A DNA stretch of 41,147 nt, from assembly GCA_947451385.1 (NCBI GenBank), contig CANFYZ010000030.1, forward strand, positions 1-41,147. Direction: 5' to 3'. A model generated the notes under the pieces. The model was given only the letters and a program-made list of their open reading frames with translations. It was not told the origin of the DNA and made no database searches. The DNA comes from Comamonadaceae bacterium (GTDB lineage Bacteria > Pseudomonadota > Gammaproteobacteria > Burkholderiales > Burkholderiaceae_C). This document shows, in pieces, positions 1 through 37,138 of this stretch. The first letter of the stretch is position 1. Each line of letters starts with the position of its first letter. A program made the translations under genes and the position numbers.

Positions 1-2
1 AA

Positions 3-182: not shown

Positions 183-198
183 CTTGCAGAAAGACCGC

Positions 199-957: not shown

Positions 958-980
958 TTTTTTTTTCACTGAGAGGTTTT

Positions 981-7381: not shown

Positions 7382-7441
7382 GGTGCGTCTCATTTTCTAA
7401 TTCAGGCCACAATGCGGGCTGTTTGATTGAGATTGTCCACC

Positions 7442-9310: not shown

Positions 9311-9317
9311 TTGCGCC

Positions 9318-10250: not shown

Positions 10251-10279
10251 GAACACCTTGGAACTCTTTTTTGAGCTGA

Positions 10280-10322
10280 TGTGATAAAAATCACGACGCA
10301 TCCTGAGGCCATTCCGTATAAA
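10280..10322 (+). promoter_or_regulatory. Promoter with CRP-type site at about -41.5, upstream of gltI
   Basis: TGTGATAAAAATCACG at 10280-10295 is a close match to the CRP consensus (TGTGA-N6-TCACA); the G-C pairs distinguish it from an FNR box. A TATAAA -10 element is at 10317-10322. With transcription starting near 10329 the site is centred at -41.5, the classic class II activator position, and there is no good -35 box, as expected for an activator-dependent promoter. The bound protein is inferred. Confidence 0.6.
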
Positions 10323-10329
10323 GTCCGGT

Positions 10330-10392
10330 GATAGCCCGTATCATTTCTCTGGTGTAATTTCGTTTCTAATCCCGAGATGGCTTTGGGCTATC
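10330..10392 (+). promoter_or_regulatory. Leader inverted repeat ahead of gltI, possible attenuator or 5' stabiliser
   Basis: GATAGCCC at 10330-10337 is repeated inverted as GGGCTATC at 10385-10392, followed by TTTTC. If transcription starts near 10329, the first arm is at the very 5' end of the mRNA and the second arm is about 40 bases before the start codon. The loop of 47 bases is long, so a simple terminator is doubtful. Confidence 0.4.
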
Positions 10393-10432
10393 TTTTCAAA
10401 AACATCGCCATGTGCGATATCAGGAGTTTGGT

Positions 10433-11323: not shown

Positions 11324-11340
11324 TCCAGTGACGCGCTGAC

Positions 11341-11374
11341 AAAACCCCGCCGGGGCAAACTTGGGCGGGGTTTT
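11341..11374 (+). terminator. Strong hairpin with T tract between gltI and gltJ
   Basis: AAAACCCCGCC at 11341-11351 pairs perfectly with GGCGGGGTTTT at 11364-11374 around a 12-base loop, and T residues continue. It lies inside the transporter operon, so partial read-through would set a high ratio of binding protein to permease. Confidence 0.85.
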
Positions 11375-11420
11375 TCTTTGGCGACTGCAAAGCAAACACC
11401 ACAGCAGAGGCGACAACAGA

Positions 11421-12143
11421 ATGAATCTGGACTGGCAAGTATTTCTAACCGACGACGGCAGCGGTCGCACCTACCTCGACTGGATGCTCGAGGCGTGGCG
11501 CTGGACACTCGCGGTGGCAGGCTGCTCTTGGGTGGTGGCGGTGGGCATGGGCGCGCTGATGGGCACGCTGCGCACTTTGCCCAGCAGCCCCTGGCTGGTG
11601 CGTTTGGCTAACGTGTGGGTGGAGTTGTTTCGCAATATTCCGCTGCTGGTGCAAATTTTCTTGTGGTACTTTGTGGTGCCCAAAATCTTTCCCTCTTTCC
11701 AGCAGGTGCCCGGCTTTGTGTTGGTGGTCTTTGCTTTGGGATTTTTCACCTCGGCGCGGATTGCCGAGCAGGTCAGGGCGGGCATCCAGTCCTTGCCCAA
11801 GGGCCAGCGCTACGCCAGCATGGCCATGGGTTTCACCACGGCGCAAACCTACCGCTATGTGCTTTTGCCCATGGCGTTTCGCATCATCTTGCCGCCGCTG
11901 ACCAGCGAGTCGATGAACCTCTTGAAAAACTCTTCGGTGGCCTTTGCGGTGTCCATCGCCGAGCTGACCATGTTCGCCATGCAGGCGCAAGAAGAAACCT
12001 CACGCGGCATTGAAATTTATTTGGCGGTCACCGCCTTGTATGCCTTGTCGGCCTTCGCAGTCAACCGTGCGTTCGCGTTGATTGAAAAGAGAGTGCAAAT
12101 CCCGGGCTTCATTGTGGCCGGCGGCACCGGTGGAGGTCACTGA
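11421..12143 (+). CDS. gltJ: Glutamate/aspartate ABC transporter permease GltJ
   Basis: The 240-aa inner-membrane protein belongs to the His/Glu/Gln/Arg/opine permease family. After a short N-terminus it shows a segment around W-T-L-A-V-A-G-C-S-W-V-V-A-V, the motif E-L-F-R-N-I-P-L-L-V-Q-I-F-L-W-Y near 72-87, and the ATPase-contacting EAA loop E-Q-V-R-A-G-I-Q-S-L-P-K-G-Q near 115-128. About five membrane segments are visible. The ATG at 11421 is chosen because earlier in-frame starts lie in the terminator. Its stop is one base before the start of gltK. Confidence 0.9.
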   Translation: MNLDWQVFLTDDGSGRTYLDWMLEAWRWTLAVAGCSWVVAVGMGALMGTLRTLPSSPWLVRLANVWVELFRNIPLLVQIFLWYFVVPKIFPSFQQVPGFVLVVFALGFFTSARIAEQVRAGIQSLPKGQRYASMAMGFTTAQTYRYVLLPMAFRIILPPLTSESMNLLKNSSVAFAVSIAELTMFAMQAQEETSRGIEIYLAVTALYALSAFAVNRAFALIEKRVQIPGFIVAGGTGGGH

Positions 12144-12144
12144 G

Positions 12145-12813
12145 ATGTTGGGACTGGACCTTTCCTTTTTTGACCTGGAGATGCTGCGCAAGTTTGTTTT
12201 GCAGGGCTTTCTCTTCAGTGTGCAGTTGACGGTGGTGGCGACTTTGGGCGGCATCGTGTTTGGCACTTTGCTGGCGCTGATGCGCTTGTCGGGCCAAAAG
12301 TGGCTGATGGCGCCGGCGGCGGTGTATGTCAACGCCATGCGCTCTGTGCCGTTGGTGATGGTGATTCTGTGGTTTTACCTGTTGATCCCTTTTTTGATCG
12401 GCAAGCCCATCGGTGCCGAGTTGTCTGCGGTCATCACTTTCATTGTGTTTGAGGCGGCTTATTTCAGCGAGATCATGCGCGCGGGCATTCAGTCCATTCC
12501 ACGCGGTCAGGTGTTTGCCGGACAGGCCTTGGGCATGACCTATGGCCAAAACATGCGCCTGGTGGTGTTGCCGCAGGCGTTTCGCAACATGCTGCCGGTG
12601 CTGTTCACACAGACCATTATTTTGTTTCAGGACACCTCTTTGGTGTACGCCATCGGCGCCTACGATTTACTCAAGGGGTTTACCAATGCGGGCAAGTTGT
12701 ATGGCCGCCCTGAAGAGGCTTATGTGCTGGCTGCAGCGGTGTATTTTGTGATCTGTTATGGCCTGTCGTGGTGCGTTAAGCGCCTGCAAACCCAAATCGC
12801 CATCGTGCGCTGA
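12145..12813 (+). CDS. gltK: Glutamate/aspartate ABC transporter permease GltK
   Basis: A 222-aa permease partner of GltJ. It has the family motifs V-N-A-M-R-S-V-P-L-V-M-V-I-L-W-F near 66-81 and the EAA loop with M-R-A-G-I-Q-S-I-P-R-G-Q near 110-122. The start one base after the gltJ stop gives tight translational linkage. GltJ and GltK form the heterodimeric channel in the inner membrane. Confidence 0.9.
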   Translation: MLGLDLSFFDLEMLRKFVLQGFLFSVQLTVVATLGGIVFGTLLALMRLSGQKWLMAPAAVYVNAMRSVPLVMVILWFYLLIPFLIGKPIGAELSAVITFIVFEAAYFSEIMRAGIQSIPRGQVFAGQALGMTYGQNMRLVVLPQAFRNMLPVLFTQTIILFQDTSLVYAIGAYDLLKGFTNAGKLYGRPEEAYVLAAAVYFVICYGLSWCVKRLQTQIAIVR

Positions 12814-12846
12814 AACGCGAACAGCCCTCTAGATTCGGAGAGAAAA

Positions 12847-13584
12847 ATGATTGAAATTCAAAATGTGTCCAAGTGGTACGGCCCGGTGCAGGTGCTCAAC
12901 GATTGTTCGGTGAACATCAACAAGGGCGACGTGGTGGTGGTGTGCGGTCCGTCGGGTTCGGGCAAATCAACCTTGATCAAAACCGTGAACGCGCTGGAGC
13001 CAGTGCAACAAGGCCACATCAAAGTCGATGGCATTTCGGTGACCGATGCAGGGACCGATTTGCCCGCATTGCGCGCCCGTGTGGGCATGGTGTTCCAGAG
13101 CTTTGAGTTGTTTCCGCATTTGTCGGTGACCGAAAACTTGACCATCGCCCAGGTCAAGGTGCTGGGCCGCTCGGAGGCCGAGGCCCAAGAGCGTGGCCTG
13201 AAGATGTTGGACCGCGTCGGCCTGTTGGCACACAAAGACAAGTTCCCGGGTCAGCTCTCGGGCGGCCAGCAGCAGCGGGTGGCGATTGCGCGCGCCTTGT
13301 CAATGGACCCGATCGTCATGCTGTTTGACGAGCCCACCTCAGCGCTTGACCCGGAGATGGTGGGCGAGGTGCTGGATGTGATGGTGCAACTGGCCAACGA
13401 AGGCATGACCATGATGGTGGTCACGCACGAGATGGGGTTTGCCCGCAAAGTGGCCAACCGCGTGATTTTTATTGACGTGGGCGGGCGCATTTTGGAGGAT
13501 TGCTCGAAAGATGAATTCTTCAATCACCCTGAAAACCGGCAACCGCGCACCAAAGATTTTTTGAACAAAATTTTGCAGCACTGA
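12847..13584 (+). CDS. gltL: Amino-acid ABC transporter ATP-binding protein GltL
   Basis: The 245-aa ATPase contains Walker [10 protein letters not shown] near 37-45, the Q-loop [11 protein letters not shown], signature L-S-G-G-Q-Q-Q-R near 137, Walker [13 protein letters not shown] and H-loop V-T-H-E-M-G-F. This is the standard subunit of polar amino-acid importers. GGAG precedes the ATG. It completes the GltIJKL set and is followed after 35 bases by the binding-protein gene of a second importer. Confidence 0.93.
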
Positions 13585-13619
13585 AACTTCTTCAACCCCA
13601 TTTGATTCACGAGGACACC

Positions 13620-14657
13620 ATGAAAAATTACCCAGTTTCCTTTCTCGCTTCGGCCCTGGTGTGTGGCCTGACGGTGTTGGCCAGCCCCTCGGCCCTGGCC
13701 GGCAAAACCCTGGACCAAATCAAACAGCGCGGCCAAGTGGTGTGCGGCGTCAATACCGGCCTGGCCGGTTTCTCGGCGGCGGATTCCAATGGCAATTGGA
13801 GCGGTCTGGATGTGGACGTCTGCAAGGCCGTGGCGGCGGCGGTGTTGTCAGACCCCAGCAAAGTCAAGTACGTGCCCTTGAATGCCCAGCAACGCTTTAC
13901 CGCCTTGCAATCGGGCGAGGTGGATGTGCTTTCGCGTAACACCACCTTCACCCTGTCGCGAGATGCCTCGTTGGGTCTGCAAGCCACGGCCGTGACTTAC
14001 TACGACGGCCAAGGTTTCATGGTGCCGGTGAAGAGCAAGATCAAAAGTCCGCAGCAGTTGAAAAATCAAACCGTGTGCGTGCAGTCCGGCACCACCACCG
14101 AGAAAAATCTGACCGACTTTTCCAAAGCCAACAAGCTCAATATCAAACCGGTGGTGTTTGAAAAATTAGAGGCCGCCAACGGCGCTTATTTCGCCGGCCG
14201 TTGCGTGGCTTACACCACCGACGCATCGGGCTTGGCCTCGATTCGCAACAAAGAAGCCAAGAACCCGGCCGAGCATGTGATCCTGTCTGAGTTGATTTCT
14301 AAAGAACCGCTCGGTCCAATGGTGCGCCGGGGGGATGACGAGTGGCAGGCCATCGTCAAATGGGTGATCTTTGGCTTGGTCGAGGCCGAGGAATACGGCG
14401 TGACGCAAGCCAACCTGGAAGCCTTGAAGGCCACCAGCGAAGATCCGGTGGTGGGCCGTTTGCTCGGTTCCAAAGAAGACACCGGCAAGCATTTGGGGCT
14501 GGACAAAGAGTGGTTGGCCCGGGCCCTCAAAGCCACCGGCAATTACGGTGAAATGTTTGAGCGCAATGTGGGCCCCAAGTCAGCCCTGGCTTTGCCGCGC
14601 GGCAGCAACAACCAGTGGAACAAGGGCGGCCTGATGTACGCCTACCCTGTGCGCTGA
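13620..14657 (+). CDS. aapJ: General L-amino-acid ABC transporter substrate-binding protein AapJ
   Basis: The 345-aa binding protein is longer than GltI-type proteins, as expected for AapJ/BztA. The signal peptide ends near A-L-A-G at residue 22-25. Then come K-Q-R-G-Q-V-V-C-G-V-N-T-G-L-A-G-F-S, W-S-G-L-D-V-D-V-C-K-A-V-A-A-A-V, L-S-R-N-T-T-F-T-L-S-R-D and Y-Y-D-G-Q-G-F-M-V-P. The C-terminus reads G-G-L-M-Y-A-Y-P-V-R, a family hallmark. It binds a broad range of L-amino acids in the periplasm. GAGGA precedes the ATG at 13620. It begins the second importer of the cluster. Confidence 0.93.
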   Translation: MKNYPVSFLASALVCGLTVLASPSALAGKTLDQIKQRGQVVCGVNTGLAGFSAADSNGNWSGLDVDVCKAVAAAVLSDPSKVKYVPLNAQQRFTALQSGEVDVLSRNTTFTLSRDASLGLQATAVTYYDGQGFMVPVKSKIKSPQQLKNQTVCVQSGTTTEKNLTDFSKANKLNIKPVVFEKLEAANGAYFAGRCVAYTTDASGLASIRNKEAKNPAEHVILSELISKEPLGPMVRRGDDEWQAIVKWVIFGLVEAEEYGVTQANLEALKATSEDPVVGRLLGSKEDTGKHLGLDKEWLARALKATGNYGEMFERNVGPKSALALPRGSNNQWNKGGLMYAYPVR

Positions 14658-23886: not shown

Positions 23887-26694
23887 ATGAAATTGACGCT
23901 CAAAAATACACAGGTAACAGGCCTGTCAGAAACGCAAGGTTTTCTGATCTCACCGAATCACCCGGTCCGAATCCAAGCGGTACCCCAGAGCAAGGTGGAG
24001 CTGTTCATTGATGGTGTTAAACAAACCGGTACCGAGTTGGTCAACGGTAAACACGCTCAGCTGAAGAAGGCTGACAAAAATTTGGTGCTCAGTTTGGATG
24101 GTGAGCCCCTGGTTGAAATTACCGACTTTTATGCCACGGAGGGGGTTTCGTTGGATGGCGCCGGCTGGCAATTTTCAAACAATGACGCTCTGGGTGTACA
24201 GAACGGCACGGTGGTTTCGCTCGCAAATGATGAAATTACGCCGCAAGCCTTACCTTTGGCGGTATTGGCAGGTGCAGGTCCGGGATTGGGCTTAGTCGCC
24301 GTTTTAGGCGGTTTGGGCTTGATCGCAGCGGGCGGGGGGGGGAACAGCCTCAGCCCGCTAGAGGCTGCATTGGCCAAGATCGAGGCTTATAACAATGGCA
24401 ACGGTCAAAACACGCCGGTACCCACGGTACAAGATTACACCGATGCCGGCGTCACAGGCGTCACGGCAGACAACCTGATCGCTGTGAATGTGCAGGTGCT
24501 CAACCAATCCGTGGGTGGCGCCAACACCGACCTGAAAATTCAAACCGTCGTGACCGGTGTCAATAACGCTGTCGCCGCGCTGAGTGCCTTTGCCCAAGCC
24601 AACGCCTCGGGTTTAAGTAACGCGACCGGGTCTATTCCTGACTTGCTCAGTTTTTCGGATGCGGGCTTAACGGGCGTCACCGCCACCAATCTGAGCTCGA
24701 TCGACGATGCATTGGCCAGTGCCAAGGTGGACGCAAGCAGAACCGATACGCCCGCCAAGATACAGGCCATCATCAACGACTACATCGCGCTATTGGCCAG
24801 TGCGGACGGTATTGCCGGTAACACCTCCACGCCACTCACTGCAGCCCAGTTTGACGATATCGGCATCGACGGGGTCACGCCGGGCAGTAACCAAAACTTG
24901 TTGAACAGCGTCATCGATGGCAAATCGAAACCGGATGTCAACACCGTCTCTGAGGTGCAGGCTTTGGCCGATGCCGCCAAAGCGGTTATGGCCGGCGCCG
25001 CTGCAGGCACTGCACCCACCAAGGCGCAGCTGGAACTGCTGGGCGTTGCCAACATCACCGATGGCAATTTGGCCGCTGTACAAGCGGCCATCAATGCAAC
25101 AAACGACGATGGCAGCGGTGTGGACTCCTTGGCCAAGTTGCAAACCGTTGTGGCGAACACCGTCCTGAGTGCAATCGCACAGATCCAAGCCGCAGCCGAA
25201 GGCGATACCGCTAACGGCACCACACCGGCTTTAACGACATATGCCACGGCCGGCATCAGTGGGGTGACCGCAGGCAATCTCGCTGCCATCAACAGCGCCC
25301 TCGACAGCACGGTGGTCAACGGCAACAAAGCCGACACCACAGCCAAAGTGCAAATCATTGTGGATGCCTACAAAGCCATATTGACAGCAGCTGACGGCCC
25401 GATGGGTGCCAACGCAGCGCCCCTGACAGGCGACCAGTTCGCAGCGGTTGGCGTGACGGGGGTGAGCGGTAGCACAGCGCCAGCAGTGGGGACCGCGTTA
25501 CACCTTCTGGACGATTCGGTGGATTTAAGTGCCACAACGATGGTGAACACCTACCCGGCATTGCAGCACATGGCCGATGCTGCGGCACACGTCATGAGCG
25601 ACGTGGCAGGGGGCGCTACTGCCACTGTGGCTGATTTTGCTTACCTGGGCATCCTTGGCGTCACTGCGGCCAATCTGGGTGCAGTAAGAACTGGCATTGA
25701 CAACGCGACTGCCAGTACCGTTGACACGGTGGCCTCACTGCAAAGTGTTGTCAACAGCGTCATTGGCTCGCCCACTTTGGAAACAGCCCTGGGCAACGTG
25801 ACCAATCTCGATGTCACCTCCAACCTGGTTTTGACTTCCTTCAGCGCGGTCAAGTTGGGCGCCTCGGGCATGATTCATATTCATCAAACGGGGGGGGCTG
25901 GCTACAACGGGGCCATCACACCCAGCAGCCATGACGTTGACATTGATCTGTCGACCGCTGCGGGCCGCAGTTTGGTGACGATGGACGCCAGCGGCACCAA
26001 AATCACCATCAATCCCACCTGGGACTTGGACCTGGGCGCCAACTACACCCTGAGTATGGATGCGGGTGCATTTGTTGATCTGGCGACAGGTACCCACGAT
26101 TCACGCGCAGTCAGCGGCGTTGGCTTCAGCACCGTCACCCCCGGATTCCATGGCAGTGGCCATACGGTGGCACAAGACGCCGTCGCCTCGCAAATGATGC
26201 AGGCCGACGGCAGCCTGGCCGCCAGCAAATTTTGGGCAAGCATTCAAGACATCGGCAACAGCAACACCCCCATGGCCGAACTGGGCAGTTTGGCTGGCGG
26301 GGCCTATGCCTTGGTGGTCAAAAACTACGCTCAGGTTGCGGGCGGAACCCCCTTAACCGGTGATGGTGTGGCGCTGCGAGACACCAATGTGAGTGTCACC
26401 AATTTTGGCGCCAACGATGTTCTCTATATCGACAACCAAGCCAACAACGCGGCAATGCAAAAGATTGATCTGCGTTACAGCGACCTGTTGGCAGGCGGTG
26501 TCAACCATGGTGGAACGGCTGACCAAACCATTCTGAGTTTCGGCACCACGAGCCTTCAAAGTTACGGCACGTCCCAAATTGCATTGGGCTTTGAGGGCAA
26601 CAGCACGAACCAAGTGTTTCACGCAATCTACGACGTGCCCGGAACTCCTGGTTTTGCCAGTTTCTTGCATTCGCAACCTGTGATCGCGGGTTGA
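23887..26694 (+). CDS. Large repeat surface protein A: BapA-like prefix, seven helical repeats, shared C-terminal domain
   Basis: A 935-aa protein with no Sec signal peptide. Residues 1-120 are beta-rich and resemble the prefix of BapA-type biofilm proteins (E-I-T-D-F-Y-A-T-E-G-V-S-L near 77-90). Residues 122-152 form a Gly/Ala/Leu hydrophobic segment ending in G-G-G-G. Residues about 156-630 hold seven roughly 65-residue repeats marked by T-G-V-T-A-x-N-L and Q-x-I-V-D-A-Y. Residues about 632-935 are a beta-rich domain nearly identical to that of the next gene. I infer export by a type I system and a place at the cell surface or in biofilm matrix; no exporter gene is in view. A G9 tract at 24334-24342 could cause slippage. 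Confidence 0.82.
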   Translation: MKLTLKNTQVTGLSETQGFLISPNHPVRIQAVPQSKVELFIDGVKQTGTELVNGKHAQLKKADKNLVLSLDGEPLVEITDFYATEGVSLDGAGWQFSNNDALGVQNGTVVSLANDEITPQALPLAVLAGAGPGLGLVAVLGGLGLIAAGGGGNSLSPLEAALAKIEAYNNGNGQNTPVPTVQDYTDAGVTGVTADNLIAVNVQVLNQSVGGANTDLKIQTVVTGVNNAVAALSAFAQANASGLSNATGSIPDLLSFSDAGLTGVTATNLSSIDDALASAKVDASRTDTPAKIQAIINDYIALLASADGIAGNTSTPLTAAQFDDIGIDGVTPGSNQNLLNSVIDGKSKPDVNTVSEVQALADAAKAVMAGAAAGTAPTKAQLELLGVANITDGNLAAVQAAINATNDDGSGVDSLAKLQTVVANTVLSAIAQIQAAAEGDTANGTTPALTTYATAGISGVTAGNLAAINSALDSTVVNGNKADTTAKVQIIVDAYKAILTAADGPMGANAAPLTGDQFAAVGVTGVSGSTAPAVGTALHLLDDSVDLSATTMVNTYPALQHMADAAAHVMSDVAGGATATVADFAYLGILGVTAANLGAVRTGIDNATASTVDTVASLQSVVNSVIGSPTLETALGNVTNLDVTSNLVLTSFSAVKLGASGMIHIHQTGGAGYNGAITPSSHDVDIDLSTAAGRSLVTMDASGTKITINPTWDLDLGANYTLSMDAGAFVDLATGTHDSRAVSGVGFSTVTPGFHGSGHTVAQDAVASQMMQADGSLAASKFWASIQDIGNSNTPMAELGSLAGGAYALVVKNYAQVAGGTPLTGDGVALRDTNVSVTNFGANDVLYIDNQANNAAMQKIDLRYSDLLAGGVNHGGTADQTILSFGTTSLQSYGTSQIALGFEGNSTNQVFHAIYDVPGTPGFASFLHSQPVIAG
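24334..24342 (+). repeat. Homopolymeric G9 tract in the coding sequence of protein A
   Basis: Nine consecutive G encode three of the four glycines that end the hydrophobic segment (residues 150-152). One base gained or lost would shift the frame and cut the protein to its prefix. A second tract of eight G is at 25890-25897; the paralogous position in the next gene is not a G run. Confidence 0.85.
24352..25780 (+). repeat. Repeat array of protein A (7 units)
   Basis: One divergent unit is followed by two a-b-c triplets. Type a units contain N-L-A-A-I-N-S-A-L-D and Q-I-I-V-D-A-Y-K-A-I-L; type b contain L-x-L-L-D-D-x-V-D and A-D-A-A-A-H-V-M; type c contain N-L-A-A-V-Q-A-A-I. The two a units are about 593 bases apart. 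Confidence 0.8.
25781..26694 (+). repeat. Paralogous 3' block, copy 1 (matches 29547-30460)
   Basis: This 914-base end of gene A aligns without a single gap to the end of gene B at a constant offset of 3766 bases, through to both stop codons. Similarity is highest from about 25930 on; in one stretch aligned by eye (26181-26310) about nine bases of 130 differ. Confidence 0.9.
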
Positions 26695-26728
26695 TCCTGC
26701 ATCAGATTTTTTTATTCAAACCCTCATC

Positions 26729-26767
26729 TCTTCACTTCAACTCTTCACCTCAACTCTTTACTTTAAC
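26729..26767. repeat. Three tandem 13-bp repeats ahead of gene B
   Basis: TCTTCACTTCAAC, TCTTCACCTCAAC and TCTTTACTTTAAC follow one another directly, ending 15 bases before the start codon of gene B. They fill most of the 88-base gap between genes A and B. Copy number could affect spacing of a promoter or mRNA leader. Confidence 0.85.
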
Positions 26768-26782
26768 TTGAACGGAAACATC

Positions 26783-29700
26783 ATGGCTACCACATCAAAA
26801 TATTTCGTAATCAACCCGACCTCTGGCACCACCTCAGACTATCTTGATTTTGACCTGAACTATGGCGGGGGCACTATCAGCACGGTCGGGGCCGACATTG
26901 TCTACAACGGCACAGCTTCCGTTGACGGTATCTATGTGCGCCCCGGTATGACCTATGACCTGACAAATACGTCAGGCGGTATAGACAAAATATATTTTGG
27001 CGGCAACTTAAGCGATTACGTGAAGTCGTTCAACAGCGGCAACATGATTTTGCAGCGAACAGTGAACAGCCAATTAGAAAAAATCACCCTGAATCAAGGA
27101 AACTCTCTCAGCTCGGACGACTTGATTTTTCTCGATGGGAAAGTCAGCGCGAATGCGCTTTACATCAGTGGCGCCACTCTGCCGCCCTTGGATACGTCTG
27201 AAAACTCCAATGCGCCAGCGATTCCCTCCCCTCTGAATGCCACCATTCAGGCTTGGTCGACCAACCCGGCTGGCGTCGGTCAGAAGGGTGAGACATTTGC
27301 ATCGAGCAAACCCGGCATTTCATTGATCTTGAACGGCGGCAGTGGTGTGGACACGGTTTACGTTGCCGACGGCGAGATGGTCGACGCGACGGGGCTTGCT
27401 GGCAGTATCGACAAAGTCTATTTTCGTGGCACCTGGGAGTCGTATACAAAAACAGCCTTGGCCAATGGCAATTTGCAATTTGTCGGGTTGGCCAACGGCG
27501 AAAAAGTCACGGTGACTGCGGGCAATGGTTTTTCTTTTGATCAACTGATTTTTGCCAACGGTTCAGTCACCACCAACAACGCACAACTGGCCATCCAGAG
27601 CAACGCCACCGGCCTGATTGGCGCTGTTCAAAATAATGACCCGACGATCAAAACCCCGTTGTACAACGACCCACAGGTAGCCGCTGCACTGGCGGTTATT
27701 CGGGACGCAGCGCAAAACAACACCGCCACCGACACCACCCCCAGCCTGCTGACCTACATCACCGCAGGCGTGTTGGGCGTGACGGATGGCACCGCGGGCA
27801 ACTTGGCCGCCATCAACAGTGCGCTGTCCAGCAGCGCCATCGGCGGTTCACTCGCCGACACCACGGTCAAAGTGCAAACCATTGTCGATGCCTACAAAGC
27901 CATCCTCACCAGTGCCGATAACAACGCGACACCCAACACCACCACCGCGCTGACGCCTGCCCAATTCACGGCCGTGGGTGTGAATAACGTACCCACAACA
28001 GGCACGGCCTTGGCGCTGCTCGGCAACGTTGTGGACGTCAGCCAAACCACTGCCGTGGACAGCACTGGCGAATTACAGAACATGGTCAAGGCCGTCAATG
28101 ACATTGGTGCTGCCGTGGGTCAAGGCATGGCGACCACCGTGACTGAAGCTGACTTGATTGCATTGGGCATTCAAGGCGTATTGCCGACCAATATTGCGGC
28201 CATCCAGGCGGCCATCGGCACAGGTACCGCCACCAATGTCAATACCAAGGCCGCTTTGCAGTCCCTTGTGACCAACGCCATCAGCACCACCAATCTGGAT
28301 GCGGCGCTGACCGTCTTGAAAACTGCAGCGGCTGGCAACTCTGCCACCAGCCCTGTTGCCCTGACGGCATTGGAGTACGCCAAAGCTGGCCTCACCGGTG
28401 TAGATGCTGGCAATGTCGCGGCCATGAACAGCGCGCTGGACAGCGCCGTTGTTGGTAGTGCACAACTCAATACCGAGGCCTTGGCCCAAGGGATTGTGGA
28501 CGCCTACAAATCTATTTTGGCCAGCGCGGATGGGCCTACGGGAACCACCTCGACCCCCCTCACGGGTGAAGCGTACGCGCTCATCGGTGTGACGGGTTTG
28601 CAAGCCAGTGGCGCACCCGCAGCGGGCAGTGCCTTGTCACTCCTTGACAGCGTCATCGACATCAAAGCCACCACTGCGGTGGACACCGAAGGCAAGGTGC
28701 AAGCCTTGGCCGACGCAGCCAACCATGTGATGACCGCCGCCGGGCTGCCTAATGGCTCGACCAATCCGCTCACTGCTGCCGACCTGGCCGCTCTGGGGAT
28801 TACCGGCTTGACCGCCAACAACACGCAAGCCGTGATCAACGCCATCGTGGCCCAAACTTCAGATGCCAACGTCGACACGCTGGCCAAATTGCAGACCCTG
28901 GCCAACGCGGCAGAGACCAGCGCCACAACCGCCCTGAGCAAAATCATTGCCGCAGCCGATGCCAATAACGCGGTCAGTACCAGCTTGGCAGCCTCGGTCT
29001 ACAGCGACGCTGGGGTATCTGGCGTGACCGATGCCGCTCATTTACTGGCAGCCAACAGCGCCTTGGACAGTGGCATCACAGGTGTACAGGTCAACACCGT
29101 GGCAGGCGTGCAAAACTTGGTCAACGCCTACAACGCCATCTTGAGTTTGGCCGACAACATAGCCAACACCGCTACGCCTACCCTCACTGGCGATCAGTAC
29201 GCCGCCGTCGGTATCACTGGCGTGACGGGCTCGGCCTTGCCTGCGGCAGGCAGCACGGTGTATCTGCTCGACAGCGTGGTGGATGCGAAGTCCATCACCG
29301 AAGTCAACACCGTGCCTTTGTTGCAAAGCATTGAAACTGCTGCCGCCCACATCATGGCCGCAGGCAACAATGGTGCACAAACCATCACGGCTGTTGATCT
29401 CACCGCCTTGGGCCTCAACGGTAATTTCACCGATACGGCCACCTTGGCTGGCATCAATACAGCCATTCATGCGGCAGCATTGACGGGCGTTGATACCAAA
29501 GCTGAGCTGCAATCCATCGCTGATTTGGCGGCCCATGCCACCCTGAGCACGGCCCTGAATGGTGTGACCAATCTGGATGTCACCTCCAGTATCGTTTTGA
29601 CATCTTCAACCGCGGTCTCATTGAACTCCCTTGGCTTGATTCATATCCATGAAACCGGCGGTGTGGGCTACAACGGCGCCATCACAACAGGCAGTCATGA

Positions 29701-30460
29701 CGTTGACATTGATCTGTCGACCGCAGCGGGTCGCAGTTTGGTGACGATTGACGCCAGCGGCACCAAAATCACCATCAATCCCACCTGGGACTTGGACCTG
29801 GGCGCCAACTACACCCTGAGCATGGATGCAGGTGCATTTTTGGGTCTCTCAGGCAACCATAACGCCTCAGTGGCCGTCAGCGGCGTGGGCTTCAGCACCG
29901 TCACGCCTGGTACGCATGGCAGTGGCCATACAGTGGCGCAAGACGCCACCGCCTCGCAAATGATGCAGGCCGACGGCAGTCTGGCCGCCAGCAAGTATTG
30001 GGCAAGCATTCAAGACATCGGCAACATCAATACCCCCATGGCCGAACTGGGCAGTTTGGCTGGCGGGTCCTATGCTTTGGTGGTCAAAAACTACGCTTTG
30101 CAAGCGGGCGGAACCGCCTCAACCGGTGATGGTGTGGCGCTGCGAGACACCAATGTGAGTGTCACCAATTTTGGCGCCAATGACGTTCTTTACATCGACA
30201 ACCAGGCCAACAACGCGGCAACCCAAAACATCGATTTGCGTTACAGCGACCTGTTGGCAGGCGGTGTCAACCATGGTGGAACGGCTGACCAAACCATCCT
30301 GAGTTTCGGCACCACGAGCCTTCAAAGTTACGGCACCTCTCAAATTGCATTGGGCTTTGAGGGCAACAACACGAACCAAGTGTTTCACGCGATCTACGAC
30401 ATCCTGCCCACGGTAGGGTTTGCAACTTTCTTGCACTCCAATCCCGTGATTTCAGGCTGA
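26783..30460 (+). CDS. Large repeat surface protein B: two-copy beta N-terminal module, nine helical repeats, C-terminal domain shared with A
   Basis: A 1225-aa protein without signal peptide. Residues 1-290 contain two copies of an about 110-residue beta-rich unit: each has V-D-x-I/V-Y-V, then D-L/A-T-x-x-x-G-x-I-D-K-I/V-Y-F, and ends in L-I-F-x-x-G-x-V. The second copy opens with a single RTX-like nonapeptide, G-G-S-G-V-D-T-V-Y. Residues about 292-920 hold three a-b-c triplets of the helical repeat. The last 300 residues match protein A. ATG 26783 is chosen because M-A-T-T-S-K-Y-F-V-I-N also begins protein C. It is 88 bases behind gene A, so co-transcription is likely. An imperfect hairpin follows it. 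Confidence 0.82.
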   Translation: MATTSKYFVINPTSGTTSDYLDFDLNYGGGTISTVGADIVYNGTASVDGIYVRPGMTYDLTNTSGGIDKIYFGGNLSDYVKSFNSGNMILQRTVNSQLEKITLNQGNSLSSDDLIFLDGKVSANALYISGATLPPLDTSENSNAPAIPSPLNATIQAWSTNPAGVGQKGETFASSKPGISLILNGGSGVDTVYVADGEMVDATGLAGSIDKVYFRGTWESYTKTALANGNLQFVGLANGEKVTVTAGNGFSFDQLIFANGSVTTNNAQLAIQSNATGLIGAVQNNDPTIKTPLYNDPQVAAALAVIRDAAQNNTATDTTPSLLTYITAGVLGVTDGTAGNLAAINSALSSSAIGGSLADTTVKVQTIVDAYKAILTSADNNATPNTTTALTPAQFTAVGVNNVPTTGTALALLGNVVDVSQTTAVDSTGELQNMVKAVNDIGAAVGQGMATTVTEADLIALGIQGVLPTNIAAIQAAIGTGTATNVNTKAALQSLVTNAISTTNLDAALTVLKTAAAGNSATSPVALTALEYAKAGLTGVDAGNVAAMNSALDSAVVGSAQLNTEALAQGIVDAYKSILASADGPTGTTSTPLTGEAYALIGVTGLQASGAPAAGSALSLLDSVIDIKATTAVDTEGKVQALADAANHVMTAAGLPNGSTNPLTAADLAALGITGLTANNTQAVINAIVAQTSDANVDTLAKLQTLANAAETSATTALSKIIAAADANNAVSTSLAASVYSDAGVSGVTDAAHLLAANSALDSGITGVQVNTVAGVQNLVNAYNAILSLADNIANTATPTLTGDQYAAVGITGVTGSALPAAGSTVYLLDSVVDAKSITEVNTVPLLQSIETAAAHIMAAGNNGAQTITAVDLTALGLNGNFTDTATLAGINTAIHAAALTGVDTKAELQSIADLAAHATLSTALNGVTNLDVTSSIVLTSSTAVSLNSLGLIHIHETGGVGYNGAITTGSHDVDIDLSTAAGRSLVTIDASGTKITINPTWDLDLGANYTLSMDAGAFLGLSGNHNASVAVSGVGFSTVTPGTHGSGHTVAQDATASQMMQADGSLAASKYWASIQDIGNINTPMAELGSLAGGSYALVVKNYALQAGGTASTGDGVALRDTNVSVTNFGANDVLYIDNQANNAATQNIDLRYSDLLAGGVNHGGTADQTILSFGTTSLQSYGTSQIALGFEGNNTNQVFHAIYDILPTVGFATFLHSNPVISG
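27658..29546 (+). repeat. Repeat array of protein B (9 units)
   Basis: Three a-b-c triplets follow the linker T-P-L-Y-N-D, which also opens the array of protein C. The N-S-A-L core of the a units recurs near 27811, 28426 and 29053, spacings of about 615 and 627 bases. Confidence 0.82.
29547..30460 (+). repeat. Paralogous 3' block, copy 2 (matches 25781-26694)
   Basis: Second copy of the gap-free 914-base block that encodes the C-terminal domain of proteins A and B. Hallmarks in both are the I-H-I-H segment, D-V-D-I-D-L-S-T-A-A-G-R-S-L-V, W-D-L-D-L-G-A-N-Y-T-L-S and the end F-L-H-S-x-P-V-I-x-G. Confidence 0.9.
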
Positions 30461-30820
30461 TCACGGTTGTCTGCCTATGCCGCTACCTATGTCTTTGCCT
30501 CTTCGTCTGTCATCAGCACGTTAGGCATGGCTTAGGCACTTTGCAGGGGCAGCAGGCATCAGAGGGTCTCATCCTGCGAGGTTGAGGTCCCTCTTTCAAT
30601 TATTTTATTTATAACAATTATTTACAACTAAGTATGCGTAATGACGTTTCCCCAACACGAACCTCACAGATGGATGCTTAGAATTAAATTGGTCATTTTG
30701 AATACTAAAAATATCAAATAAATTATTTTTAGATGAATTTCAAATTGAAAAATATCTAATTGATATGAGCCACTGCGCCGCCGGCGTCAAAACTTAAAAC
30801 ACCTCTCACGGAGCACACGG
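30461..30820. other. 360-base AT-rich intergenic region ahead of gene C
   Basis: I see no gene here. The first 100 bases are mixed and end in the hairpin described separately. From about 30597 to 30770 the sequence is strongly AT-rich and looks like a promoter or nucleoid-protein binding region. It carries AACAATTATTTACA (30613-30626) and GAATTTCAAATTG (30735-30747), each a one-mismatch match to an element upstream of gene A (the second in reverse orientation). CGGAG at 30809-30813 is the ribosome site of gene C. Confidence 0.6.
30561..30600 (+). terminator. Imperfect hairpin with T-rich tail after gene B
   Basis: AGAGGG at 30561-30566 pairs with CCCTCT at 30589-30594; inner TCA/TGA and CCT/AGG pairs extend the stem. 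TTTCAATTATTTTATTT follows. It probably ends the A-B transcript. Confidence 0.55.
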
Positions 30821-33800
30821 ATGGCCACCACTTCTAAATATTTCGTCATCAATTCATCAGGCGATAGCCAGGACTTTCTGGATTTCGAACTGAACTACGG
30901 AGGGGGCAGCATTTCGACCGTGGGCCAGAATATTTTGTACAACGGCACATCCGGGGTCGATGCAATTTTTGTGCGTCCTGGCAGTACTTACGACCTGACC
31001 AACACCTCAGGCAATATCGACAAAATCTATCTCACTGGCAGCCTGAGTGACTATCACGCGCAGATCAACAACAACGGCAATCTGGTCTTAACGCGGAATG
31101 TGGGTGGCCAAATCGAATCGGTGACGCTCACCGCAGGAAACCAATTCAATTACGACAGTCTGATTTTTGCCAATGGCAAAGTCTCTAATAAAGATGTGTC
31201 AGAAGCCATCACAAATAACACGGCATTGCCCGTACCTAACGCAGCAGAAACATCTCTTCACCCCCTGGTCCCCAGTAGCCTCAGCGCTTCGCTTGAAGCG
31301 TGGTCCACGAACACCGCGCCTGTAGGACAAAAAGGGGAAACCTTTGCCTCCACCAAAGCAGGTGTTTCTTTGGTCGTCCACGGTGGCAGTGGCATTGATA
31401 CGGTGTATGTGGCCGATGGTGAAGTGGTCGATGCGACCGGACTGGCTGGCAGTGTGGACAAGGTGTACATGCGTGGGACCTGGGAGTCCTACGAAAAGAC
31501 CGTGCTGGCGAATGGCAACTTGGAGTTCAAACGGCTGATCAATGGATTCGAGGAAAAAGTAACGGTCACTGGCGGCAACGGATTTTCGTTCGACCAACTG
31601 ATTTTTGCTAACGGATCGGTCACCACCTTCAATGCGGTGATGGCTCTGGCTGTCAATCCTTTGGCGCCCATCACTTCGGTATCAGGAATAAACCTGACCA
31701 CCGTCACCCCGCTCTACAACGACTTTGAAGTGGCCGCCGCACTCGCGGCCATTCGGGATGCCGCGCAGAACAACACGGCAACCGACACCACGCCCAGCCT
31801 GACCACCTATGCCATCGCAGGCGTGACGGGTGTGGACGCCTCCAATCGGGCCGCCATCAACAGCGCGCTGTCCAGCAACCCGGTGACCGGCGCGCAAGCC
31901 ACAACCGCTGCACAAGTGCAAGGCATTGTGAATGCCTACACAGCCATTTTGGCCTCAGCGGACGGCCCGACGGGCAGCACGACCGCCATTCCACTGGCGG
32001 GTAACCTCTTTGCTGCCGTCGGCGTCACCGGTGTGGCCGGCATGACCCCCATCGCGGGCAGCGCGATGGCTTTGATGGACAGCGTGGTGGACGTGGCCAC
32101 CCACAGCCAGGTTGACACCGTGGCCGAGCTTCAAAGCCTGGCCGATGCCGCAGCGCGCGTCATGGCGGCTGCCGGTGGCACCACCTCACAAGCCACGGCC
32201 CTGACCCTGGACGACCTCACTGCGCTGGCCATCACCGGCGTGACCCCAGCCAACTTGTGGGCAGTCCAGTCGGCCATTCAAGCAGCCACGTCAGACACAG
32301 CGGTGGATTCGCAAATCGAACTTCAAGCCCTCGTCACGGCAGCCATCGATGGTGTGGCCATCGCATTGAACAAAATTCAATACGCTGCAGAAAACAACCT
32401 GGCCGCCTTGGGGGACCCGACCCATCCCGCATTGACTGTGCAAGTTTTCAATGCCGCCAGCATCAGCGGTGTGACGGCGGGCAACCTCGCCTCCGTCAAC
32501 AGTGCGCTAGACAGTGCAGCCGTCAATGGTGCGCAAGCCACCACGGCCACGCAAGTGCAAACGCTGGTGGATGGCTACAACGCCATTTTGGCCAGCGCAA
32601 ACGGCACCCACTCGCCGAGTGCGACACCACTCAGCGCTGCAGTGTATGCCGCCATTGGCGTGACCGGCTTGGCCGCCGCAAACGGCGCAGGCACAGTATT
32701 GGCGCTGTTGGACGATGTGGTGGACCTGAGCGTCAAAACCGCGGTGGACATGGAGTCCGAAGTCCAGGCCATGGCCAGTGCCGCAGCCCATGTCATGCAA
32801 GACGTGGGCACCGCCGGAACAGCGGCCCATGTGACTGTCGCCGATCTCGCTGCGCTGGGCATTGCTGGTGTGGGCGCGACGGAGTTGGTCGCAGTACGCG
32901 TTGCCATTCAAGCTTTGACCGACCCCAAGTTGGTGGATTCGCAATACGAATTGCAAACCCTGGTGAACACCACGCTCGGTAAATCTGCGTTGAACATCAT
33001 TGCCGCCGCCGCTGAAGCCAATACCGCTACAGCCACCTTGACCCTCGCCAGCTACACGGCAGCCGGCGTGACCGGTGTGGATGCAAGCAACCTCGCCCCG
33101 ATTAACAGCGCTCTGGACAGTGCCGCCATTGATGGCGCTCGCGCCGACACGCTGCCTCGCGTGCAAGCCATTGTGGACGCCTATCAAGCCTTATTGGCTG
33201 CGGCCAATGGCACACCAGGCAGCACACCGGTCACGGCGGAGCAATTCTTCGCCATTGGGGTGACAGGAGTCACCGGCTCGACCACAGACACCAGCACCGC
33301 CTTGCATTTGCTGGACGATGTCGCCGACTTGTCCGGCGCGTCCGCCGTCAACACCGTTGCCAAGGTGCAAGCCCTGGCCGATGCCGCCGCTCACGTCATG
33401 GAGCTCACCGGCAACCCGAACGCCAACCTCAGTGCCACCCTCAGTGCCAACCTCAGCCCCAGCGCGCAAGAACTGAACACCCTGCTGGGCAACAACCAGG
33501 TCACGCCCCTGAACCTGACGGCGATTCAAAACGCCCTGAAACTCGGGACCGATGCCGGCCTGGACACCCGCGCCGAGTTACAAGCCCTGGTGGACAACGT
33601 CAACAACATCATCTTGCCCGCGGCATTGGGGGCGATTCAATACGCAGCACTCAACAATGTGGCTGCAACAGGCGATGGCTCGCACAGCGCACTGAGCACC
33701 TCCACTTATGCCGCTGCAGGCGTGATCGGCGTGGATGCCAGCAACTTGGCTGCGGTCAACAGCGCATTGGACAGCGTGGCCATCACCGACGTTCAAACCA

Positions 33801-36800
33801 CCACCACCGCCCAAGTGCAAGCCATTGTGGGTGCTTACCAAGCCATCTTGGCCAACGCCGATGGCTGGTCTGACAACGATCCGCCTTTGTCAGGTGAGGT
33901 GTTTGCCGCTGTGGGCGTCACAGGCTTGCCCACGGGGGCACCTGCGGTAGGCTCCGCTTTGAACCTGCTCAGCAGTGTGGTGGACCAAAGCAAATCCACC
34001 TTCGTGGACAGCGTGACCGAACTGCAAGCCATGGCCGATGCGGCCAAGCACGTGCTGGTCGATGTGGGAGCCGCAGGCCCATCCGCGACCTCGTTAGCAG
34101 ATTTGCAGGCCTTAAACATCATCGGCGTTGACCCCAGCAATCTGGCAGCAGTGCAAGCCGCCATCAAAGGCCTGAACAGCACCAGCTTGGTCGACACCCA
34201 GGGGGAACTGCAACGCTTGGTGGACAGCTTGTTGGGCAACCTGGGCACAGCTCTGCTCAAGATCAGCGCCGCCGCCGAGAACAACAATGCCAACGGTGCA
34301 TTGGGGGTGGCAGCCATTGCTGTCGCCGACTACGTGGCGGCGGGTGTGACGGGTGTGTCCGACGGCCTCACCGGTAACTTGGCTTCCATCAACAGCGCGT
34401 TGAACAGCGCCGCCATCAATGGCGACATGACCGACACCACAGCCGAAGTGCAGGCGGTGGTCGATGGCTACAACGCCATTTTGGCCAGCGCAGACCACAC
34501 ACTCAATGCCATCAATCCGCTCAGCGCTGCGCAGTTCGCCAGCATTGGTGTGACCGGTGTGAGCGGCCCTTATGCCGCTGGCAACGCGCTGCACTTGTTG
34601 GACGACGTGGTTGATCAGGCGCTGGTTGCCTCTGTGGACACTGTGCCTGAGGTGCAGGCCATGGCCGATGCAGCCAAAGCGGTGATGACCGGCTCTGCTG
34701 CGGGCACAGGGCCCACCTTGGCCCAACTCGGGGTTCTGGGCATCACCGGCGTGACGGGAGGCAATCTGGTCGCAGTGCAAGCGGCCATTGCCGCCACACC
34801 CGATGACGGCACCGGTGTGGACACACAAGCTGAATTGCAAGCGGTCGTCAATGGCGGAGCGGCCGCAGCCGCCCTGGCTTTGAACGCCATCCGCGATGCC
34901 GCGGAAATCGACAGCGCAACAGACTCCAGCCCTGGTGCAGCAACTTACATGACAGCCGGCGCGACCGGGGTGACAGCGGTCAACCTGGCGGCCATCAACA
35001 GCGCGTTGAACAGCACGCCAGTAACGGGTGCAAAAGCCGACACCACTGACAAAGTGCAAACCATCGTCAATGACTACACCGCTATTTTGAACAGCGCCGA
35101 CGGTACAGCAGGCAATACCGCCACGCCTCTGACCGCAGCGCAATACACCGACATCGGCGTGACGGGCGTGAGCACCGGCAGTGCGCTGCATCTGCTCGAT
35201 GACGTGGTGGACGGCAAGGCGACAACGGCAGTGGACACGGTGGCCGAGGTACAGGCGCTGGCCGATGCGGCGGCGCACGTGATGACTGGCGCTGCGGGTG
35301 CCACCGCTCCCACGCTGGCGGAGTTGACCTTGCTGGGCATCACCGGTTTGACCGCCGACATCATGACCGGCGTGAGCGCCGCCATTGCCGGTACAGCGGA
35401 CAACGGCAGCAGTGTGGACACTGTGGCCAAGATCCAGGCCTTGGTGAATGGCGTGAACCATGCGCCTGTAGTCAACAGTCCGACGGTAAGCAGTGGCGTG
35501 GCGGGCTTATTCGCCCACTCCAGTGCAATGGGTACCGCCATTGGCGGACCGGCCATAGAACTGACGCCCGTATGGACTCCGGATGGTGAGGGCGGCTTTT
35601 ATAACCAACCCACCGTGGTGGGTTGGAGTCGCACTAACTTTTCCGGCAATATGGCGGTATATTGGGTACAAGACTACACCACCGTTCGTTACGGTGAACC
35701 GGCGTTGTCATTGAGTAGCCAACCTTGGGGAATCCAAAATTCAGCTTCTTGGCGAGACAACATCGATGGGGGTGTTTCGCACAACGGCGGTGGCTTCCTC
35801 GAATTGGGTAACACTCAGGTCCCTTGGATCTATTCGCTGACTGCCTTAAGCACAAACCTCACCGACTTGGTCGTCGGTCAGACTTATGTATACGGACTCC
35901 AATGGCAGCAAATGCGGTCTATGTATATCGACGAGAACGGCAGCAATTACTACTACGCTGGTGGCCAGTTGCTCATGAACATCAATGGGCGTAGTCAGGT
36001 CTACACCTCCTCGGGCCTGGCCGATGGCTGGAACACCGCGCTGTTCAGCTTCACCGCGGCCCATTCGACTGAAACGGTGCAGGTCTCTCTCAATGGCCTG
36101 GCTGGCGTCGACCCTACCCCCTATCCGGTGAAGTATGGCTGGGATGGAACTGGGGGAGATATCGCAGTCGATTCCCTGAGCACAGCCCAGATCATGGCCG
36201 CCAATCCTGCGGTGCAGGGTGCCGGTGCTACCACCAATGCCTTGTTTGGCTCGGTCAGTGACACCGATACGAGCGCTTCGCTGAAGGGCTGGGCCATCAC
36301 CAGCGCGGCCAATGACGGCGCAGGCCATCACTGGCAGTACAGCAGTGACCAAGGCACCAGCTGGCATGACATGGACAGTGCCAGCACGGGCCAGGCGATC
36401 TACCTGGCGACCACCGACTTGATTCATTGGACCGGTCTGAAAGGGACCAATACCGAGCTCGATGCGCGCGCCGTCGACAACACAGGCCCGGCATTGCATG
36501 CGACCAATGCGCTGGCAGGTTCGGTGGACACCACCCAAAACGGTGGCTCCACGGCTTACAGCGGCAACACGGCGGTCTTGGCGGCCCACGCGCCACCGCT
36601 GCTGCTGGACCTGAACCATGACGGCGAGATTCAATACAGCCAGATCGACATGACCCAAGACGGGCAGTCCGTCCACACCGCCTGGGTCGGCGCCAATGAT
36701 GGCATGTTGTTCTGGGACAAGTTGGCCGATGGCATCTTGCACGGCACTGATCAGTACGTGTTCGGCAAAAACACCGGCAGTGACCTCAACGGTTTGCGCG

Positions 36801-37138
36801 CCCAGTTTGACAGCAACAACGACTTTCAGTTCAATGCCCAAGACGCGCAGTTCAGCCACTTTGGGGTTTGGCAAGATGCCAACCAAAACGGCAACGTCGA
36901 CGCTGGCGAGTACCGCACGCTGAGCCAGTGGGGCATCACCTCGCTGGCGTTGAACAGCATCGAAGTGAACACCGCACCAGCCCAGGGCGTGAACGAGGTC
37001 GGACACACCACGGCAACTCTGGCCCAAGGCGGCTCGATGCTGGTGGTGGATGCGAACTTTGAATATTCGCACCTGACCTGGGTTGCCCCAACCTCACCGG
37101 AGCAGGCTTTCGCTCTCGGCAACCACGCGGTGATTTAA
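30821..37138 (+). CDS. Giant repeat surface protein C: beta N-terminal module, 18 helical repeats, sandwich and EF-hand-type C-terminus
   Basis: The 2105-aa protein has no signal peptide. Residues 1-295 match the two-copy beta module of protein B, including G-G-S-G-I-D-T-V-Y. Residues about 296-1546 hold six a-b-c triplets (18 units). Residues about 1547-1790 look like a beta-sandwich of carbohydrate-binding type (many W, Y, N and G; G-G-G-F-L-E-L-G-N-T), and about 1795-1890 resemble a cadherin/VCBS-like segment (S-V-S-D-T-D-T-S-A-S-L-K). Then come three calcium-loop motifs: D1930 D-L-N-H-D-G, D1997 D-S-N-N-D-F and D2019 D-A-N-Q-N-G-N-V-D-A-G-E, the pattern common near the end of RTX adhesins. 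I infer type I secretion and calcium-dependent folding outside the cell. The end differs fully from A and B. Confidence 0.84.
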   Translation: MATTSKYFVINSSGDSQDFLDFELNYGGGSISTVGQNILYNGTSGVDAIFVRPGSTYDLTNTSGNIDKIYLTGSLSDYHAQINNNGNLVLTRNVGGQIESVTLTAGNQFNYDSLIFANGKVSNKDVSEAITNNTALPVPNAAETSLHPLVPSSLSASLEAWSTNTAPVGQKGETFASTKAGVSLVVHGGSGIDTVYVADGEVVDATGLAGSVDKVYMRGTWESYEKTVLANGNLEFKRLINGFEEKVTVTGGNGFSFDQLIFANGSVTTFNAVMALAVNPLAPITSVSGINLTTVTPLYNDFEVAAALAAIRDAAQNNTATDTTPSLTTYAIAGVTGVDASNRAAINSALSSNPVTGAQATTAAQVQGIVNAYTAILASADGPTGSTTAIPLAGNLFAAVGVTGVAGMTPIAGSAMALMDSVVDVATHSQVDTVAELQSLADAAARVMAAAGGTTSQATALTLDDLTALAITGVTPANLWAVQSAIQAATSDTAVDSQIELQALVTAAIDGVAIALNKIQYAAENNLAALGDPTHPALTVQVFNAASISGVTAGNLASVNSALDSAAVNGAQATTATQVQTLVDGYNAILASANGTHSPSATPLSAAVYAAIGVTGLAAANGAGTVLALLDDVVDLSVKTAVDMESEVQAMASAAAHVMQDVGTAGTAAHVTVADLAALGIAGVGATELVAVRVAIQALTDPKLVDSQYELQTLVNTTLGKSALNIIAAAAEANTATATLTLASYTAAGVTGVDASNLAPINSALDSAAIDGARADTLPRVQAIVDAYQALLAAANGTPGSTPVTAEQFFAIGVTGVTGSTTDTSTALHLLDDVADLSGASAVNTVAKVQALADAAAHVMELTGNPNANLSATLSANLSPSAQELNTLLGNNQVTPLNLTAIQNALKLGTDAGLDTRAELQALVDNVNNIILPAALGAIQYAALNNVAATGDGSHSALSTSTYAAAGVIGVDASNLAAVNSALDSVAITDVQTTTTAQVQAIVGAYQAILANADGWSDNDPPLSGEVFAAVGVTGLPTGAPAVGSALNLLSSVVDQSKSTFVDSVTELQAMADAAKHVLVDVGAAGPSATSLADLQALNIIGVDPSNLAAVQAAIKGLNSTSLVDTQGELQRLVDSLLGNLGTALLKISAAAENNNANGALGVAAIAVADYVAAGVTGVSDGLTGNLASINSALNSAAINGDMTDTTAEVQAVVDGYNAILASADHTLNAINPLSAAQFASIGVTGVSGPYAAGNALHLLDDVVDQALVASVDTVPEVQAMADAAKAVMTGSAAGTGPTLAQLGVLGITGVTGGNLVAVQAAIAATPDDGTGVDTQAELQAVVNGGAAAAALALNAIRDAAEIDSATDSSPGAATYMTAGATGVTAVNLAAINSALNSTPVTGAKADTTDKVQTIVNDYTAILNSADGTAGNTATPLTAAQYTDIGVTGVSTGSALHLLDDVVDGKATTAVDTVAEVQALADAAAHVMTGAAGATAPTLAELTLLGITGLTADIMTGVSAAIAGTADNGSSVDTVAKIQALVNGVNHAPVVNSPTVSSGVAGLFAHSSAMGTAIGGPAIELTPVWTPDGEGGFYNQPTVVGWSRTNFSGNMAVYWVQDYTTVRYGEPALSLSSQPWGIQNSASWRDNIDGGVSHNGGGFLELGNTQVPWIYSLTALSTNLTDLVVGQTYVYGLQWQQMRSMYIDENGSNYYYAGGQLLMNINGRSQVYTSSGLADGWNTALFSFTAAHSTETVQVSLNGLAGVDPTPYPVKYGWDGTGGDIAVDSLSTAQIMAANPAVQGAGATTNALFGSVSDTDTSASLKGWAITSAANDGAGHHWQYSSDQGTSWHDMDSASTGQAIYLATTDLIHWTGLKGTNTELDARAVDNTGPALHATNALAGSVDTTQNGGSTAYSGNTAVLAAHAPPLLLDLNHDGEIQYSQIDMTQDGQSVHTAWVGANDGMLFWDKLADGILHGTDQYVFGKNTGSDLNGLRAQFDSNNDFQFNAQDAQFSHFGVWQDANQNGNVDAGEYRTLSQWGITSLALNSIEVNTAPAQGVNEVGHTTATLAQGGSMLVVDANFEYSHLTWVAPTSPEQAFALGNHAVI
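31708..35460 (+). repeat. Repeat array of protein C (18 units in six a-b-c triplets)
   Basis: The N-S-A-L core of successive a units lies near 31858, 32497, 33103, 33757, 34390 and 34997, so the long period varies between about 605 and 655 bases (about 200-218 residues). Triplet 3 has a longer c unit with a small internal repeat (S-A-T-L-S-A-N-L-S near 33425-33460). Confidence 0.85.
35605..35626. repeat. Perfect 10-bp inverted repeat inside gene C
   Basis: CCAACCCACC at 35605-35614 and GGTGGGTTGG at 35617-35626 are separated by only GT. It lies in coding sequence (N-Q-P-T-V-V-G-W) soon after the end of the repeat array, near the start of the unique sandwich-like domain. Confidence 0.8.

Follow-up and report, generated by a model that had tools for sequence, protein, structure and literature searches.

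Three modular giant proteins of a Comamonadaceae genome, built on one helical repeat, as a probable set of type I-exported surface adhesins

Contig CANFYZ010000030.1 of a Comamonadaceae bacterium (assembly GCA_947451385.1), analysed here over its whole length of 41,147 bases and called the window below, carries three consecutive genes, A, B and C, which probably encode a set of Bap-like surface adhesins exported by a type I system, with A as their anchor. This reading explains the size of the proteins, their composition, their repeats, the linkage to an exporter in relatives and the existence of an adhesin-type paralogue, gene D. In most descriptions, a giant type I adhesin is a single chain that unites anchor, stalk and tip. 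The window is one complete contig (C30) of a draft genome of 3.1 Mb in 107 contigs, 90% complete. The genes are as follows:

23887..26694, plus strand: gene A, 935 amino acids (aa); N-terminal prefix, two super-repeats and a C-terminal domain (CTD)
26783..30460, plus strand: gene B, 1225 aa; an N-terminal domain (NTD), three super-repeats and a CTD
30821..37138, plus strand: gene C, 2105 aa; NTD, six super-repeats, a Trp-rich module and a cap resembling a self-processing module

Their common modules are placed thus:

24568..25767, plus strand: two super-repeats of A
27686..29533, plus strand: three super-repeats of B
31739..35458, plus strand: six super-repeats of C, the sixth shorter (194 aa)
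26783..27685, plus strand: NTD of B, made of two beta copies; three of eight family members are weakly HCBP_related (PF06594)
30821..31738, plus strand: NTD of C (64% identity with the NTD of B)
25768..26691, plus strand: CTD of A, its first ~120 aa like Big_5 (SbsA Ig), followed by a further part and a tail
29534..30457, plus strand: CTD of B (85% identity with the CTD of A)

A sequence-only reading of the stretch had proposed this gene order, these lengths and a common set of modules, namely one internal helical repeat in all three proteins, a two-copy beta module in B and C (the NTD) and a 300-residue C-terminus shared by A and B (the CTD). All of it was confirmed, as was the near absence of cysteine, since none of the three proteins contains a single one; nor do they have an evident Sec signal. 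The super-repeat, of about 205 residues, is present in 11 copies in the window, and long tandem extender repeats of this sort are a trait of Bap/LapA-like adhesins. An AlphaFold model of the second unit of A is compact and all-helical, ten-residue blocks averaging 73-97 in predicted local distance difference test score (pLDDT), and the libraries searched returned no credible family match for it. These repeats would act as stalks, their length scaling with copy number (2, 3 and 6). The same repeat family is found within very long open frames of genus relatives, of 14860, 16083, 15497, 17576 and 10695 residues, located in genomes G264 (contigs C3 and C2), G404 (C27), G412 (C2) and G400 (C36).

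The modules proved to lie outside, or weakly inside, the named families searched, the possibility of well-characterised families having been raised beforehand, and neither the CTD of A nor the NTD of B passed a curated cut-off in the libraries used. HCBP_related is matched by the NTD family at E up to 1, with a best value of 8.9e-4 and no match in the NTD of B itself; unlike that family, the NTD consists of two tandem copies at the extreme N-terminus. Five of eight CTD family members match Big_5 (PF13205) at E up to 1 (best 2.6e-4), the CTD of A scoring 19.7 bits against a gathering cut-off of 23.6. SbsC heads the structural comparison, in line with an SbsA/SbsC-type Ig-like start; the portion of the CTD beyond that start falls to no named family.

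Linkage to a type I exporter comes from relatives. In Rhodoferax lacus IMCC26218, the sole relative returned by a search of genome contigs, genes for an outer-membrane efflux protein (OEP), an ATP-binding cassette (ABC) protein and HlyD are followed consecutively, on one strand, by an A-type gene of 739 aa (prefix, one super-repeat and CTD) and by a gene that begins with an NTD and continues, over three open frames, with repeats and with stretches that we take to be FG-GAP-like repeats. The three frames of this second gene overlap (locus L058:11655-24134), which may reflect a repeat assembly error or real breaks. The same order, ABC, HlyD, prefix frame, CTD frame and NTD gene, recurs on contig C12 of genome G087, where the prefix and CTD frames flank an assembly gap and presumably form one A-type gene; no OEP gene was read near this set in the stretch that was fetched. 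The genome of the window has two OEP-ABC-HlyD operons of this type, on contigs C57 and C45, among seven ABC_membrane matches in all. Identity to the R. lacus exporter is 67% (ABC), 60% (HlyD) and 44% (OEP) for the C57 operon, against 44%, 41% and 28% for that of C45. Of the three ABC proteins scanned, every one has the LssB-type model TIGR03375 as its best match (669.7, 635.9 and 623.9 bits; cut-off 693.1), and the three HlyD proteins scanned all exceed the TIGR01843 cut-off. An exporter outside the window had been suggested as something to look for: the R. lacus exporter, whose operon adjoins the homologous gene pair there, indeed has its closest counterpart on contig C57, and the C57 operon probably serves A, B and C.

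Paralogue D lies on contig C45 (2-8671, minus strand) and encodes at least 2890 aa, being open at the contig end. It joins an A-type prefix and helical repeats to calcium-stabilised adhesin repeats (NF033510, 130.5 bits, cut-off 50), and it is divergent from the C45 type I operon at 9250-13972. Next to the C57 operon, and running towards its HlyD gene, stands the C-terminal end of an Ig-like adhesin (2-1157, plus strand), cut by the contig border, which could be the missing end of D. A third exporter of PrtD size, with a 583-aa ABC frame, HlyD and an OEP-like protein, is found on contig C6 (1-7974), preceded by an adhesin-like frame ending in a Gly/Ser-repeat tail.

The part of anchor would most likely fall to A, by analogy with the N-termini of BapA and LapA, through its prefix:

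23887..24366, plus strand: prefix domain of A, about 130 aa, then a Gly/hydrophobic segment; common to paralogue D and relatives

That a BapA-like prefix is found in A alone had been put forward; among the three proteins it is indeed confined to A, but the relation to BapA stays below curated cut-offs. Weak matches to PF22783 (BapA_N) occur in four of 13 members of the prefix family (best E 0.023) and to NF033677 in one of the 13 (E 0.014). At E up to 0.1, BapA_N is matched in 15 of 90 genus genomes and also in one of 14 control genomes. In genome G413 a single open frame of 1358 residues holds both matches to the repeat and one to BapA_N that falls short of the threshold (E 2.2e-5, 25.5 bits, cut-off 27), which ties repeat and BapA_N-like prefix together. 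The label 'BapA prefix' is best taken as weakly supported. The closest relatives of A by prefix are in genomes G474 (69% identical) and G475 (71%).

Several observations weigh against the adhesin reading. A type I operon was not found adjoining A, B and C within the window, where the flanking genes are unrelated and the single ABC_membrane protein (7427-9310) lies 14 kb before A, without adjoining HlyD or OEP. The OEPs of C45 and C57 score 119.4 and 126.6, short of the TIGR01844 cut-off of 225.15. A itself shows no match to BapA_N (PF22783 or NF033677) at E up to 1, and none of the 90 genus genomes exceeds the curated BapA_N cut-off. The Pfam matches of the three proteins at E up to 1 include no RTX repeat family. 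A LapG-type protease (PF06035) was not found in the genome (90% complete), so that cleavable retention in the style of LapA is not supported. Finally, a gene uniting prefix and CTD was seen nowhere but in A itself, R. lacus and, presumably, G087 C12; in G474 and G475, where the A-type gene reaches the contig end in both, NTD and CTD were not found. As for a different architecture, in which A, B and C would form an S-layer-like or matrix sheet and not extended adhesin chains, we regard it as highly improbable.

How the three proteins might act is best seen from their layouts. Threaded C-terminus first through an LssB-type ABC exporter, probably that of C57, A would remain as the cell-surface anchor, B, with its NTD and CTD, would be an extender, and C, in which an NTD and the longest stalk are joined to a probable binding module and a calcium-binding cap, would be the distal tip. 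Each CTD would dock to the NTD of the protein that follows (A-CTD with B-NTD, B-CTD with C-NTD), the docked proteins chaining head to tail outward from the cell. CTD and NTD would then be a matched docking pair, with a CTD-bearing anchor, a bivalent extender and interchangeable tips having an NTD only. A partnership of this kind is the simplest account of the prefix-CTD, NTD-CTD and NTD-cap layouts of A, B and C; we nevertheless consider docking a doubtful, if possible, arrangement. Within the same type I adhesin reading there is another account, which we hold rather more plausible while keeping it short of an even chance: A, B and C would each be exported and act alone, their modules being shared by duplication only, with the NTD as a surface retention domain (plugging the channel of the exporter in the outer membrane, or binding to that membrane) and the CTD as a type I secretion domain combined with a binding domain. 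Genomes with several large adhesins are known: two are named for D. vulgaris in an excerpt of PMC13090378, which does not there state a common exporter.

The distribution of the modules bears on both accounts. At least 25 of the 90 genus genomes match some part of A, whereas the NTD was found in four of them and the CTD, at no less than 241 of 280 profile positions, in exactly the same four, a coincidence that speaks against adhesins acting independently; R. lacus likewise has both. Short parts of the CTD profile, and nothing longer, are matched in five further genus genomes and, in a sample of 399 genomes of the family, in 14 further ones, mostly at the Big_5-like part. Long NTD or CTD matches in that sample were confined to the genome of the window and G087, and NTD searches gave short weak matches in three genomes with the alignment and in one other, G246, with B alone; limited candidates were scored per genome in the genus searches with A and the family searches with NTD and CTD, and these absences are not firm.

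Adjacency bears on them too. All eight long CTD copies, found in five genomes (four of the genus and R. lacus), adjoin an NTD, again a point against independent action. In each of the six that end a gene, an NTD-starting gene follows 58-360 nt downstream on the same strand; the two internal copies, both in G408, come right after an NTD of their own chain. These internal copies are without the last profile part (241-251 of 280 positions), as if it were a secretion tail, and together with the terminal position of the other six this would suit a CTD made for export. The NTD, for its part, stands at the start of the chain in every copy read from genomes other than G408, as a retention domain should, but in G408 its starting points, at about residues 978 and 1927 of the open frame, are ill-suited to an N-terminal plug. 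Eight of 13 NTD copies adjoin a CTD, and five have no CTD neighbour, which favours proteins acting alone; the count of 13 excludes a fragmentary fourteenth match at a contig end (G087 C17), and R. lacus was not searched genome-wide.

Other findings count against docking. The adjacency cases are not independent: the A-to-B and B-to-C pairs are paralogous, the C10 copy of G087 duplicates that of C12 (96.8% over 2378 bases) and belongs to a gene that breaks off ahead of the CTD, and DNA identity between the G399 copy and G087 is 89% over 2867 bases. What remains amounts to about four lineages: the present genome, R. lacus, G087/G399 and G408. The duplicate among the six terminal CTD cases lowers the standing of docking and raises that of independent adhesins. 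Models of NTD (pLDDT 48.5) and CTD (mostly under 60) are poor, and docking could therefore not be modelled. Co-occurrence and adjacency support a partnership of CTD and NTD, but common descent of a small gene set could also explain them.

The chains behind the NTD differ: those of R. lacus, G399 and G408 have FG-GAP-like stretches, and that of C has the end resembling a self-processing module. G399 has one CTD copy against four NTD copies. Co-occurrence of the three architectures in relatives, an expectation of the sequence-only reading, held for A-type and NTD-type genes but not for the exact A-B-C trio, which was found in this genome only. Three NTD genes stand behind one or two same-strand genes (L104 upstream 16881, L107 upstream 2017 and L108 upstream 3460) that we take to resemble a DUF1800/DUF1501 pair. 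Near NTD loci of G087 (L063:6862-8706, minus strand) and G399 (L105 upstream 4383) there is also a two-gene pair, presumably of the LuxR/LuxI quorum-sensing kind.

The distal part of C comprises three further segments:

35459..36310, plus strand: Trp-rich beta module, residues 1547-1830; candidate ligand- or carbohydrate-binding region
36311..36571, plus strand: linker/beta module, residues 1831-1917, assigned to no family
36572..37135, plus strand: C-terminal domain, a homologue of the self-processing module of FrpC, with Pro-Pro at the place of the scissile Asp-Pro

The Trp-rich module holds 10 of the 22 Trp residues of C and has no Pfam or PDB match; its composition and distal position suggest a role in binding. 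The C-terminal domain had been described as an EF-hand C-terminus: two EF-hand-like loops are there, but the domain is a homologue of the FrpC self-processing module, and calcium binding is predicted for it. It matches PDB 6sjw and 6sjx at E 1.6e-14 and 3.4e-14 over 138 residues, and residues 1939-2076 of C align with the FrpC/ApxIVA module of these structures at E 1.2e-13. The P-x3-D-x-[DN]-x-D-G spacing is retained along with the loops, and both Trp residues of the paired-Trp site align to Trp in C. In FrpC and ApxIVA the module is internal, while in C it stands at the C-terminal end. All this could bring to mind a protein that clips and links, cleaved before its C-terminal domain upon calcium binding and then coupled covalently to neighbours, cross-linking a matrix. 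Such an activity is scarcely credible for C. FrpC cleaves at Asp-Pro, whereas C has Pro-Pro (1925-1926) at equivalent spacing from the D-x-N-x-D-G loop, residue roles and spacing in FrpC being those of an excerpt of PMC7078468; the HMMER alignment does not reach this edge, which was positioned by motif. Two further acidic residues placed near the cleavage site in that excerpt align with other residues in C, though alignment confidence around the second is modest.

The surroundings of the three genes are unrelated to them. Upstream are genes for acyl-CoA and amino-acid-type transport functions, a DUF3025 protein, an M48 peptidase, EamA, a 5'-nucleotidase and a T2SSF-type protein; downstream, an alpha/beta hydrolase, a beta-lactamase-family protein and a SET-domain protein. 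The A-type genes of G474, G475 and G465 have neighbours that differ from these, hence their genomic place is not fixed.

If the docking arrangement were true, the distribution of anchor, stalk and tip over co-directional genes, joined through a conserved pair of end modules, would be a novel means of building and varying a cell-surface fibre. It would explain why one N-terminal domain is common to several different tip proteins, and one anchor could display several of them, as the G399 copy numbers would allow. This makes a small, directly testable binding hypothesis, and R. lacus IMCC26218 is an environmental bacterium in culture. The earlier proposal of a cell-surface or biofilm system, with A anchoring and B and C extending, is partly supported; the evidence on exporters from R. 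lacus, G087 and C57 fits it. It had also been stated that the set was not recognised as a named system: no name for the set was found, but its kind, type I-exported, Bap-like giant adhesins, is known.

Among known systems, the Bap/LapA-like adhesins (LapA, BapA, SiiE, and BapP of Pseudoalteromonas) come closest. They are likewise large, repetitive, modular and free of cysteine; a type I operon is present in the genome of the window and directly upstream in relatives, and calcium-stabilised adhesin repeats are found here in paralogue D. The present set differs in that its putative stalk is a helical super-repeat and not a series of beta-sandwich or Ig domains, and in its swappable ends, the whole being split over three co-directional genes with common NTD and CTD modules. 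In its manner, docking of CTD to NTD would be similar to that of cohesin-dockerin systems, put to use for surface adhesins.
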